Of a stretch of DNA of 32,267 bases, positions 4,261-8,944 are shown in pieces. Within the stretch, counting starts at the first letter, position 1; the number at the start of each line of letters is the position of its first letter. The translations under genes and the position numbers were made by a program. The notes under the pieces are model-generated. The model ran no database searches and was not told the origin of the DNA. It was given only the letters and a program-made list of their open reading frames with translations. Source of the DNA: Flavobacteriales bacterium (GTDB lineage: Bacteria > Bacteroidota > Bacteroidia > Flavobacteriales_D > Crocinitomicaceae); NCBI GenBank assembly GCA_947476955.1, contig CANJSS010000019.1, forward strand, positions 1 through 32,267, written 5' to 3'.

Positions 4261-4330
4261 ATTTCGCAGAAATCACGATAATTAAGCGATAAATTGAATA
4301 ATTCTAGTAGATTTGTTTAAAATCAATACG

Positions 4331-5461
4331 ATGATCAAACGCTTGCAATTTGCCCAATTATCAAAAAATATTTCCCAAAGTAAAATCGTTCTGGTAACTG
4401 GTCCGCGTCGGGTTGGAAAACGAACTGCTGTGCATTCTGCCCTTCAAGAAATTGGGGAAGTTGCATTGGAACTTAATGCTTCGAATAAGACAGTTAAAAA
4501 ACAATTTGAATCGGTTACCTCTGAGACTATTCAAGCCGCTTTTCAGGGAAGCCGGTTTGTGGTAATTCACGAAGCCCAATATCTGGAGAAATTGCAAGAA
4601 ATGATCGAATTGTTGCTTTCCGGAGCAATCGAAACGACACTCATTTTATGCTGTTCCTATGAACCTGCGATGGATGAATTATTGCGAGAAGTGCTGCAAT
4701 TACAGGGGCTAGAAACTACCTTATTGCCAACCACATTTTATGAATTAGCGCAAAAAAACACCTTGCCAGAAGAGGAAAAGTTATTAGAGCAACGTTTGAT
4801 TTATGGGAATTATCCAGAAGTAACAGAAGATGTGGAGCATGCCGAGCTCGTTTTGCGCGAAATGGTGCAAGAGGTTATTTTTACAAATCTTGGTGTAACG
4901 GATCGCATCAATAAAGGAGATAAATTGCGCCGAATGCTACAAATTATTGCGTTCAACATTGGGGAACCAATTTCCTATAATGAGATTGGTGAAAAGTGCG
5001 ATTTGGACAATGAAACAGTAGAAAGATATGTCGATCTTCTGGAAAAATCGTTCATTCTTATTCGAATGCCATCGTTCTACAACGAGCACCGCTACGAACT
5101 TAAAAAAAGCCACGTTATCTATTTTGTAGACAATGGAATCCGAAATGTTTTGATTAGTAATTTCAACCCGCTTTTCCTGCGCAACGATATCGATCAGCTA
5201 TGGCGGAATTGGCTTATTTCTGAACGGATAAAGTGGAACAAATTGAATGGAAAACAAGCCGATTATCGATTTTGGAGGACGCATACCCGACAAACAATGG
5301 ATTTCCTGGAAATTCAAGATGGAAAGATTGCTGGCTATAAAACGGCTTGGGAAAAAAAGAAAAAACTTAAATTCCCCATTTCTTTCACAGAAGCTTATCC
5401 TCAAATTAGCACTCATACGTTGAATCGTTCCACCTATTGGGGCTTTTTGACAAAGAAATAA
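4331..5461 (+). CDS. AAA (DUF4143-type) ATPase-like protein, probably a degenerate enzyme
   Basis: The ORF track starts at 4313; internal ATG at 4331 (MIKRLQFAQLSKN) is the likelier start. VLVTGPRRVGKRTAVHSAL P-loop region, FVVIHEAQYLEKL Walker-B region, winged-helix and DUF4143-like C-terminus. Confidence 0.8.
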   Translation: MIKRLQFAQLSKNISQSKIVLVTGPRRVGKRTAVHSALQEIGEVALELNASNKTVKKQFESVTSETIQAAFQGSRFVVIHEAQYLEKLQEMIELLLSGAIETTLILCCSYEPAMDELLREVLQLQGLETTLLPTTFYELAQKNTLPEEEKLLEQRLIYGNYPEVTEDVEHAELVLREMVQEVIFTNLGVTDRINKGDKLRRMLQIIAFNIGEPISYNEIGEKCDLDNETVERYVDLLEKSFILIRMPSFYNEHRYELKKSHVIYFVDNGIRNVLISNFNPLFLRNDIDQLWRNWLISERIKWNKLNGKQADYRFWRTHTRQTMDFLEIQDGKIAGYKTAWEKKKKLKFPISFTEAYPQISTHTLNRSTYWGFLTKK

Positions 5462-5466
5462 AAACT

Positions 5467-8292
5467 ATGCATTTTACAGACCAAATTGCCGATTACATCT
5501 ACGAAAATGAGTTAGATTTAAAACATTTAACCATTGTTTTGCCTTCTGAACGTGCCAAAAAATATATTGCAGCCTCCTTGTATAGAAAGTTTCAAAAACC
5601 GATTCTTGCGCCGGAAATGGTTACAATTGACCGTTGGGTAAAAAATTTATCTGAAAAAACGGTTATCGATAAAACCCGCGTTCTCTTGCGCTTGTTCGAA
5701 GTTCAACTCGCAAATCTTACCAACGAGAAGGATGCTTCGTTTGACGAATTTCTTTCTTGGGGGAATATTATTTTATCCGATTACGACGAAATAGATCGGT
5801 ATCTTTTATCCTCCAAAGAAGTCTTTAAAAATTTGGCGGACATAAAGGAAATTGAAAATTGGAGTTTTGGAGGGGAAGATGAACTATCTGTCGGTCAGAA
5901 ACGGTTTATGGAATTTTGGGATCACTTGCCGGATTATTACCAGCGGCTGAATGAAGTTTTGGACAAAGAAAATGTTTGCTATATGGGAAAAGCTTACCGC
6001 AATGTAGCAGAAAATATCGACTTAGTTTTTCGTAAAGACAAAGACCAACATTTTCTTTTTGCCGGTTTTAATGCCTTATCTAAAACGGAAACAAATATCA
6101 TGAAACAACTGCGCACCATGGGGCGTGGTCATATTCTTGTTAATGCAGATGCGTATTATCTGCACAACAAAAATCACGAAGCAGGAAGGTTTTTACGCAA
6201 ATTTCTAACAGATCTGGATGTAAAATCTTTGCCATTTTGTGGGGACGAAATTGTACATGCCAAAAAGGAAATTCGAATAATAGAATGTGCGCAACATACA
6301 GGTCAAGTAAAAGCTGCAGCTACAATTCTTGAGAATTTCGAGGAACAGGAATTTAACCAAACGCTCGTTTTATTGGCCGATGAAAGTTTGATAGCGCCCT
6401 TATTGAAAAATCTACCAAAGAAAATCGGCAAAGCTAATATTACGCTCGGTCTGCCACTTCGGAACACTTCCTTGAGAACTTGGGTTGAATTGCTTTTTAC
6501 GATCCAAGAAAATAAAGTGCGATTTAAGTCGGAAGCGATTTATATTTATGATTTACAGCGCTTTTACAATCACCCATTTCTAAATGCTTTAATAACGAAA
6601 GAGGAAAAGGATGCCATCGCCGAGTTGGAATATAGATTAATAGAGAAAAATAGTATTTTTCAAGCCATTGCGAATATCAAAATCGGCGAACTTCCAGATA
6701 AATTGCTCGCTCTCGTCTCAAAAAACTGGAAGAACGATTGGCTTTCAGGAGTGCAAACTATTCGGGAAATTAACAATTTAGTTTTCCGTAATTTTCAGAA
6801 TTCTGAGTCTTTTGAAAAGGCAATTGTACAAGGTTTCGATCGCGCGCTAGTTGATTTTCAGAATATTCTAGAGGAGGGAATTCCGGAAATGTCGATCAAA
6901 AGTTTCAAGCATTTGTTCCAGCAGCATTGGAATACAAAATCTGTTGCTTACCATGGAAATCCGCTGGAAGGATTGCAAATAATGGGATTACTAGAAACCC
7001 GTTTACTGGATTTTAAAAATATCATTGTTCTTGGTATGAATGAGGGGAAAATGCCGCCAACAAATCCTGTCCAAACGATGATACCTATGGATTTGCGATC
7101 TTATTTTGATTTACCTACACCACGCGATAAACAAGGATTATTTGCGCATCATTTTTACCGACTTTTTCACAATTGCGAACAAATGTGGGTAACCTACACG
7201 AGTGCGCAAGAAAGTATTGGCAGTAATGAAGCAAGCCGTTATTTACTGCAGTTGGAATTGGAATTGTGCCGTATGAACCCAGAATTTAAGATGGAACGTC
7301 AATTCTACTCTATTCCGAATATAACGAGTGAAACCGAAGCCATTCAGGAAGCGCCAAAAACGCCAGATGTCATAAAGCGATTGGAGGAACTATTTGAGGC
7401 ACCAATTTCTGCTTCAGCATTAAATAAATACATGAAGTGCCCGCTGGATTTTTATTACCGAAATGTATTGGAATTTGGCGAGGAAGATACGATTGAAGAA
7501 GAAGTGGAAAGTAGTACCTTAGGAACATTCATCCACAATGTTTTGGAGGAATTATACATGCCTTTTGCGCGGTACAATAAAGATAAAACACTTAAATCTA
7601 CGCCACCGCCAAATATTACTTCTTTCGATATCGATAAAATGCTGAAGGAATATGTATACAAGATTGAAAAAGAATTTTTCGAGCATTTTAATCAGGATAA
7701 ATCAGCGTATAAGACTGGAAAAAACCTCTTGAGTTTTAAGATGGCGGTTGAATTGATGGAACGTATTTTGAAACAAGAAAAGAAGTTTCTAAGCGAACAA
7801 ACAGAACCTGTTTTTATTGAATACTTGGAAGCGGAATTGCATGCCGACATGGAAATAGAACTGGCTGGTGAAAAGAAAACCATCCATTTCAAAGGCTTTG
7901 TGGACCGAATCGATTCCATCGGCGGAAAAATTCGCATCATCGATTACAAATCCGGGAAGGTAAATCCAGGGGATGTGCAGATGAAAGAATTGAGGGAAGG
8001 AATGGATTTGGTAAAATATTTTGGGGATACAAAACATGCCTTGCAGTTATCGCTTTACAACTATTTGTACCTGAAAAATTTCCATATTTTACCCTATCAA
8101 GCTGGGATTTATTCCTTGATTAATATCTCAGAAGGGATTTTTCCATTTGAGGGAAAAAACAAAACAAACGAAGAATTAGTGCAGGTGTTTCAGGAATTCA
8201 TTGAACAACTCGTCAACGAAATTTACAACACCGAAGTGCCATTTGCACATAAAAAAACTGGGATGAAGAGTTGGTGTTTGTATTGTGATTGA
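5467..8292 (+). CDS. AddB-like helicase/PD-(D/E)XK nuclease family protein
   Basis: ATG at 5467 just after the upstream stop. LTIVLPSERAKKYI N-terminus; C-terminal Cas4/AddB-like nuclease: KYMKCPLDFYYRNVL...LGTFIHNVLEELY...FKGFVDRIDSIGGKIRIIDYKSGKV. Confidence 0.85.
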   Translation: MHFTDQIADYIYENELDLKHLTIVLPSERAKKYIAASLYRKFQKPILAPEMVTIDRWVKNLSEKTVIDKTRVLLRLFEVQLANLTNEKDASFDEFLSWGNIILSDYDEIDRYLLSSKEVFKNLADIKEIENWSFGGEDELSVGQKRFMEFWDHLPDYYQRLNEVLDKENVCYMGKAYRNVAENIDLVFRKDKDQHFLFAGFNALSKTETNIMKQLRTMGRGHILVNADAYYLHNKNHEAGRFLRKFLTDLDVKSLPFCGDEIVHAKKEIRIIECAQHTGQVKAAATILENFEEQEFNQTLVLLADESLIAPLLKNLPKKIGKANITLGLPLRNTSLRTWVELLFTIQENKVRFKSEAIYIYDLQRFYNHPFLNALITKEEKDAIAELEYRLIEKNSIFQAIANIKIGELPDKLLALVSKNWKNDWLSGVQTIREINNLVFRNFQNSESFEKAIVQGFDRALVDFQNILEEGIPEMSIKSFKHLFQQHWNTKSVAYHGNPLEGLQIMGLLETRLLDFKNIIVLGMNEGKMPPTNPVQTMIPMDLRSYFDLPTPRDKQGLFAHHFYRLFHNCEQMWVTYTSAQESIGSNEASRYLLQLELELCRMNPEFKMERQFYSIPNITSETEAIQEAPKTPDVIKRLEELFEAPISASALNKYMKCPLDFYYRNVLEFGEEDTIEEEVESSTLGTFIHNVLEELYMPFARYNKDKTLKSTPPPNITSFDIDKMLKEYVYKIEKEFFEHFNQDKSAYKTGKNLLSFKMAVELMERILKQEKKFLSEQTEPVFIEYLEAELHADMEIELAGEKKTIHFKGFVDRIDSIGGKIRIIDYKSGKVNPGDVQMKELREGMDLVKYFGDTKHALQLSLYNYLYLKNFHILPYQAGIYSLINISEGIFPFEGKNKTNEELVQVFQEFIEQLVNEIYNTEVPFAHKKTGMKSWCLYCD

Positions 8293-8584: not shown

Positions 8585-8944
8585 TTAATACAAGATCAAT
8601 TTCAACGCTGTTCGGTAATCTTTTATTTCTTCTCGGTTGATCTTATGATCTGCATTTTTTAGCAAATTCAATAAATAAAGCAAGTTTTCCGTGCTTTCAA
8701 TTTCGATTGGATATTCATTTCCTTCTTCGTCTTCATCGTATTGTGCTTGAACATCAAATGATTCATTATCAGCAAGATACTCATATGTTAGACGCAAAAC
8801 TTTTGTCACCAAAGGATCTTGTTCCTTTAATGCATATTCTCTCAATTCTTTTAAATCCTCGATAAGTTTAGGAGCTTTCAAACCTTTTTTCTCAACTTTG
8901 GCAATAATCTCGTCTAACTTGGTATTTGCTGCTGCAATCTTCAT
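8585..8944 (-). CDS. Conserved-looking hypothetical protein, 119 aa, acidic and helical
   Basis: Intact ORF with its own terminator and promoter-like elements; MKIAAANTKLDEIIAKVEKKGLKAPKLIEDLKELREYALKEQDPLVTKVLRLTYEYL. Confidence 0.75.
   Translation of the reverse strand: MKIAAANTKLDEIIAKVEKKGLKAPKLIEDLKELREYALKEQDPLVTKVLRLTYEYLADNESFDVQAQYDEDEEGNEYPIEIESTENLLYLLNLLKNADHKINREEIKDYRTALKLILY

Follow-up and report, generated by a model that had tools for sequence, protein, structure and literature searches.

What becomes of an ATPase–nuclease when all of its recognisable catalytic motifs have degenerated and its reading frame has not? The question is raised by an open reading frame, here called psAAA, in the window (the whole stretch of 32,267 nucleotides that was analysed) from a Flavobacteriales bacterium. 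The first-pass annotation of this DNA had proposed a pseudoenzyme of the AAA/DUF4143 type with a binding or regulatory role, rather than a gene in decay. The protein matches both Pfam families above their curated cut-offs (AAA_14, E 1.1e-9, 38.9 bits against 27; DUF4143, E 3.3e-26, 92.4 bits against 28.1), and its ATG start is consistent with the orthologues. The frame, given earlier as 377 intact codons, is indeed full length, the last of these codons being the stop. The features discussed below are collected in Table 1.

Table 1. Features of the psAAA locus, in window coordinates
Feature	Position	Strand	Basis
TraB/PrgY/GumN-family gene, frequent upstream neighbour of psAAA	3049–4260	+	domain match; synteny
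Candidate operator (no binding data), palindromic core TCGC-N18-GCGA at 4264–4289	4262–4291	+	upstream of 63/68 orthologues
TAGATTTG, resembles a −7 element	4308–4315	+	conserved in relatives of several genera
psAAA, degenerate AAA_14–DUF4143 protein, 376 aa	4331–5461	+	Pfam above cut-off; orthologues
AAA_14-like domain, residues 17–139	4379–4747	+	Pfam match; modelled at pLDDT ~85–90
Degenerate Walker A GPRRVGKR, without Ser/Thr	4400–4423	+	alignment with intact relatives
Degenerate Walker B VVIHE, without Asp	4559–4573	+	alignment with intact relatives
Altered sensor, CCSY where active relatives have GSS	4649–4660	+	column comparison
Lost arginine finger, LQLQ replacing LTGR	4694–4705	+	column comparison
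DUF4143 region, residues 192–334	4904–5332	+	Pfam match
Predicted wHTH recognition helix, residues 224–235 (DLDNETVERYVD)	5000–5035	+	high orthologue conservation; repeat tracking in active relatives
E292R, first nuclease carboxylate now basic	5204–5206	+	94% of orthologues have R/K; active relatives always E
D324, nuclease Asp kept, invariant	5300–5302	+	column comparison
Lost E-x-K (K337, T338, A339)	5339–5347	+	column comparison
C-terminal tail LNRSTYWGFLTKK, conserved, diagnostic of the psAAA clade	5420–5458	+	orthologue alignment
addB-like gene (PDDEXK_1), 5 nt 3′ of psAAA, likely cotranscribed	5467–8292	+	Pfam, NCBIfam

Three substitutions had been suspected, namely Walker A Thr to Arg, Walker B Asp to His and loss of the nuclease E-x-K pair. 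All three are seen in an ungapped alignment with intact relatives, as T31R, D80H (VVIHEAQ) and the change of YEFKW to YKTAW (E337K/K339A); since the alignment is ungapped, the possibility that the conserved residues have merely shifted to adjacent positions is ruled out. The same comparison reveals further losses that had not been noticed: LWEN has become LWRN, and both the sensor and the arginine finger are altered. The protein therefore fails the Walker A pattern GxxxxGK[ST], at a position that is variable clade-wide, the Walker B pattern hhhhDE, and the PD-(D/E)XK arrangement E (LWEN)...D...E-x-K, of which E292 and E-x-K are gone and D324 is kept. It also fails at the arginine finger, which is R in 28/28 active relatives and in approximately none of the psAAA orthologues; the finger corresponds to LTGR in the AAA_14–DUF4143 family, with its role assigned by analogy.

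Some elements of the active sites persist. Walker A G24, G29 and K30 and Walker B E81 are mostly retained among the orthologues, the nuclease core keeps D324 and E327 without exception, and GKT is present in a few members of the clade. These residues are what an ATPase or nuclease still working through unconventional residues could draw on, but we regard such residual activity as highly improbable: the protein no longer has its Mg-binding Ser/Thr and Asp, its arginine finger or either nuclease glutamate, and several of the positions drift freely. Active relatives show little or no variation in the columns for the Ser/Thr of Walker A, the Asp of Walker B and the Lys of E-x-K; in the dead clade these columns stand at the 95th, 92nd and 81st percentiles of variability. 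Where active relatives have the two nuclease glutamates, the clade mostly has basic residues (R/K at 292 as in Table 1; K/R at 337 in 78%).

The pattern of losses is common to 67 psAAA orthologues, and the 28 intact relatives are invariant or nearly invariant at those columns; judged from the alignment alone, the shared losses exceed chance. The check that the annotation had suggested, whether orthologues share the losses, comes out positive for the whole orthologous clade. In the phylogeny a branch with an SH-aLRT support of 100 sets the dead proteins apart from the rest, and their stem is long, at 1.35 changes per site. A genome search places a single-copy orthologue in ~93 of 150 sampled Crocinitomicaceae genomes from 11 genera, a number obtained from 97 matches at E ≤ 1e-70 by subtracting 4 in which an intact relative was the sole match. 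Scores from an order-wide profile search are bimodal, with psAAA orthologues at or above 452.9 bits, all in Crocinitomicaceae, and everything else at or below 363.7; that search found no orthologue beyond this family. The named records likewise belong to Crocinitomicaceae, Flavobacteriales (e.g., Taishania pollutisoli), and many of the related sequences derive from MAGs.

The annotation had also named a dN/dS well below 1 as something to check. For close psAAA pairs the whole-gene value is 0.02–0.12, and in most of these pairs it is 0.01–0.05 across the winged-helix part and the middle of the gene. Selection holds the winged helix more strictly than any other part, and its conservation is high. 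The dead clade has acquired invariant residues of its own (R192, N194, N227, R232, Y255 and T319, with E228 at 97%) and has gained constraint in the C-terminal tail. As far as sequences can tell, such a pattern of columns marks a protein whose chemistry is lost and whose binding function is retained. An internal stop occurs in 2 of ~95 copies, a single TAA in each (G120:C123 and G150:C74), which may be real or an assembly error. Plain decay could appeal to these two copies and to the loss of the gene from some lineages, but the dN/dS values and the full-length frames in 11 genera contradict it for the clade as a whole, and it is barely tenable. A single clade with shared losses, purifying selection, variable former catalytic columns and a conserved winged helix is not one in decay. 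The pseudoenzyme reading is therefore supported, by the clade-wide losses, by dN/dS and by the conserved palindrome described below, and a probable role can now be specified in testable form. Separately, two DUF4143 proteins (L163 in G081:C11 and L166 in G095:C29) have GKT or GKS and no clear E-x-K, and are perhaps a second degenerate line.

Structural comparison added little to this picture. A sequence search gave no useful homologue of solved structure, and no psAAA relatives were found on viral contigs, where they were sought to deepen the alignment. The AlphaFold model, built on a 10-row alignment, has a mean pLDDT of 58 and is confident in the AAA domain only; with it, Foldseek returns AAA+ proteins of a generic kind, among them RuvB and SSO1545.

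What the protein might bind is suggested by the DNA in front of its own gene. Alignment of upstream regions shows a conserved element common to two genera whose upstream genes differ. Adjoining its palindrome is TAGATTTG, which resembles the −7 element of Bacteroidota (consensus TAnnTTTG). The pattern NCGC-N18-GCGN lies at −95 to −35 in 33/68 psAAA orthologues; 500 Markov-shuffled trials average 0.21 such cases and never exceed 2. A 30-bp profile (attCGCAAaAtTcAAntaAaTtaaGCGaat) finds the site 30–90 bp 5′ of the gene in 63/68, with scores of 12–34 for the orthologues, a maximum of 10.0 for shuffled sequence and a same-strand maximum of 8.0 upstream of active relatives. This profile was fitted to the psAAA orthologues themselves, which are related, and the counts are not independent. 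Within the window there is no second CGC-N18-GCG site. In 1.1 Mb of loci, nearly all strong sites lie 5′ of psAAA or of the active sister genes L124 and L125, and none was found in 20 loci that carry addB without psAAA. Genome-wide counts, which are based on a composite pattern search for the site together with its adjoining −7-like element, show the combination to be about unique per genome, with extra matches at about the rate of a reversed-pattern control. In genus g33 (with Taishania; L057, L058 and L090) and in L021, no upstream site is recognisable, although the usual recognition helix is kept.

The active relatives carry arrays instead. In the nearest active lineage (L124 and L125), several related units with a spacing of 32 bp lie directly upstream of the gene. 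Across 31 loci, self-similarity at a lag of 32 within 200 bp upstream of active genes gives a z of 5.5, and a phylum-wide set of 30 loci, two of which repeat earlier ones, gives 5.5 as well. In the latter set 32 is the best lag upstream of 14/30 genes, compared with 1/30 in the downstream control and 0/29 in the far-upstream control. It is also the best lag for plasmid- or phage-borne relatives (Desulfosarcina, Treponema and a faecal phage contig), each of them individually weak. Against Markov shuffles, a significant 32-bp array precedes 49/63 active genes, 0/68 psAAA orthologues and 0/100 control promoters, and the other periods tested upstream of active genes yield 0–7 significant cases. 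The units are palindromic (20.5 of 32 positions, against 16.05 ± 0.24) and their sequence is gene-specific. A generic AT-rich artefact is ruled out by the control promoters together with the downstream and far-upstream controls. A universal half-site spacing is unsupported in the active arrays, where every even span is raised; we therefore restrict the N18 claim to the dead clade and to examples like L206. The arrays end ~0–60 bp 5′ of the start codon, as at L124:5230–5405 and upstream of L241, L206, L120, L256, L258 and others. In the distant DUF4143 subtypes L161, L162, L171, L176, L177 and L049, the upstream repeat has a lag of 22–23 bp, about two helical turns, rather than 32. We found no description of such arrays in the searchable literature, which excludes most subscription papers, and DUF4143 is mentioned there only in a table of one paper. 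Compared with the role of psAAA, the array preceding active genes is the more general result.

The repeats and the protein vary together. Along the proteins of the active relatives, 61 windows of 12 residues were scanned, and the window at 223–234, in the recognition helix, is the best correlate of repeat-unit similarity, both raw and after removal of overall protein similarity; for the helix at 224–235 the partial Mantel r is 0.24 (p 0.0005, 46 loci). By eye, helices with SKNTV go with half-sites GACT, those with DKNTV go with CACC or CACT, and those with DNETVERY go with CGCAA. The last pairing is exemplified by L206, which comes from another family and is active as judged by its motifs (GKT, DEAQ, LWEN and YEFKW), and whose upstream region contains the CGCAA-type repeats TTCGCAAAATTCAA..., CCGCAATATTT...TTTTGCGG and TCGCAAATTT...AAATTTGCGA. 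The dead clade and L206 share an identical helix, DNETVERY, and identical half-sites. It is mainly from this co-variation, without binding data, that binding of the upstream site by dead psAAA is inferred.

Our main reading is that psAAA is a pseudo-ATPase and pseudo-nuclease retained as a sequence-specific DNA-binding autoregulator of an operon that often includes addB, to which we assign a probability of roughly 0.6; both binding and regulation are inferred. Its origin would lie in an AAA_14–DUF4143 enzyme that recognised palindromic repeats in front of the gene encoding it. The residues needed to hydrolyse ATP and cleave DNA would then have disappeared in the ancestor of the Crocinitomicaceae clade; that they are missing is visible in the alignments. 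A single palindrome in place of the 32-bp-phased array is likewise observed, and its descent from the array is inferred. The winged helix is predicted to bind CGC-N18-GCG, probably as a dimer, with half-sites 22 bp apart, or about two helical turns. By this means psAAA may control its own transcript, including addB where the two genes adjoin. The dead nuclease lobe, with Lys or Arg in place of two metal-binding glutamates, could plausibly hold DNA without cutting it. Support for autoregulation comes from the conserved winged helix and the conserved palindrome at the gene's own promoter, from which binding and promoter control are putative extrapolations. Counting against it are the lack of binding or expression data, the absence of the site in g33 and L021, the frequent location of addB elsewhere and the poor model outside the AAA domain.

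A further objection is that another regulator is possible. If a different transcription factor occupied the palindrome, psAAA would be a scaffold or nucleic-acid-binding protein of other function; its own binding is unmeasured, and the lineages that keep the helix without the site are compatible with this. We consider it quite unlikely, however, considering that the site vanishes along with the gene, is near-unique per genome, and has a counterpart in active relatives in which helix and repeat covary, the CGC type included.

Two other possibilities involve protein partners. The usual order is hutI–traB–psAAA–addB–orf119–lysE, and addB adjoins psAAA in 39 of ~62 orthologous loci. The gap between them is −4 to +13 nt in 38/39 of the adjacent loci, even where the upstream genes differ, and such tight coupling would suit a psAAA that serves the AddAB (RecBCD-type) helicase–nuclease as a DNA clamp or as an accessory subunit without catalysis of its own; any autoregulation would then be secondary. 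AddB itself is a RecBCD-type nuclease subunit that neighbours psAAA in many lineages and is not homologous to it. The distribution of the two genes makes the subunit idea unlikely, though not negligible: addB is present in 138/150 Crocinitomicaceae genomes, compared with ~93 for psAAA; psAAA is conserved apart from addB in g2, g10, g11, g34, g35 and g38; and it has been deleted from intact traB–addB operons, as in g41 and g8 species, where only psAAA is missing. Alternatively, psAAA might modulate those DUF4143 paralogues that are active, pairing with them as a dominant-negative or regulating them in the manner of an antitoxin. Active paralogues do exist in many psAAA genomes, including the window's own, but psAAA is the sole DUF4143 protein in 14/44 genomes that are at least 90% complete, and we find this very unlikely. 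The near-universal addB, the separate loci, the losses of psAAA and these 14 genomes together rule out an obligate role for psAAA, whether as AddB subunit or as partner of active paralogues.

Several loci show variations on this arrangement. In L140, L141, L142, L144, L148 and L146, psAAA is cleanly absent from hutI–(traB–)addB–orf119–lysE, mostly in genomes of 2.2–2.6 Mb. In L126 (G103:C10), an active DUF4143 copy of 35% identity is inserted between psAAA and addB, just 3′ of psAAA. A 119-aa open reading frame beside addB (window 8585–8944, minus strand) has no Pfam match above cut-off and is 61–87% conserved family-wide. The addB gene is found as two matches in G034:C18 and G166:C3, and one of the G034 pieces has an in-frame TGA.

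The family to which psAAA belongs is also a candidate for phage defence. PDC-S01 is a PADLOC candidate single-gene defence system, an ATPase fused to PD-(D/E)XK, and this AAA_14–DUF4143 candidate is reported as the fourth most common across prokaryotes (PMC12988326). No description of its mechanism was found in the searchable literature. Although psAAA shares its sequence family and domain order with PDC-S01, it lacks the catalytic residues, is inherited vertically at a stable chromosomal locus among housekeeping genes, and has a single upstream site rather than an array. The synteny of this locus does not meet the expectation of a mobile or defence-island setting, and the only relatives on the plasmid and phage records listed have no more than ~35% identity. 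The active proteins L124 and L125, which are nearest in the tree, and L206 resemble it in fold and winged helix, but they have intact Walker A and B motifs, an intact E..D..E-x-K and several upstream repeats. A functional analogue, not a homologue, is RptR, a 9-kDa autorepressor of a defence island with measured binding to 6-bp palindromes (PMC12255303). RptR acts on palindromic repeats of the promoter that drives it, and its recognition helix and site are conserved jointly. The same kind of action is proposed for psAAA, though its binding is inferred and it is an unrelated, former ATPase–nuclease.

The psAAA case separates DNA binding from catalysis in the AAA_14–DUF4143 family, and the helix-matched 32-bp array offers a testable DNA target for active PDC-S01 proteins. 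It is an even bet, in our estimation, that these proteins and their own arrays constitute a module that recognises itself, with a readable code from helix to repeat, and that was domesticated in Crocinitomicaceae, with the enzyme dead, as a one-site regulator of a chromosomal operon often containing addB. Finally, the PADLOC profile for PDC-S01 (PDLC04789) matches psAAA at E 1.5e-111, and 26/26 representatives match it as well. Since the profile accepts this catalytically dead clade, the prevalence counts for PDC-S01 may include dead members.
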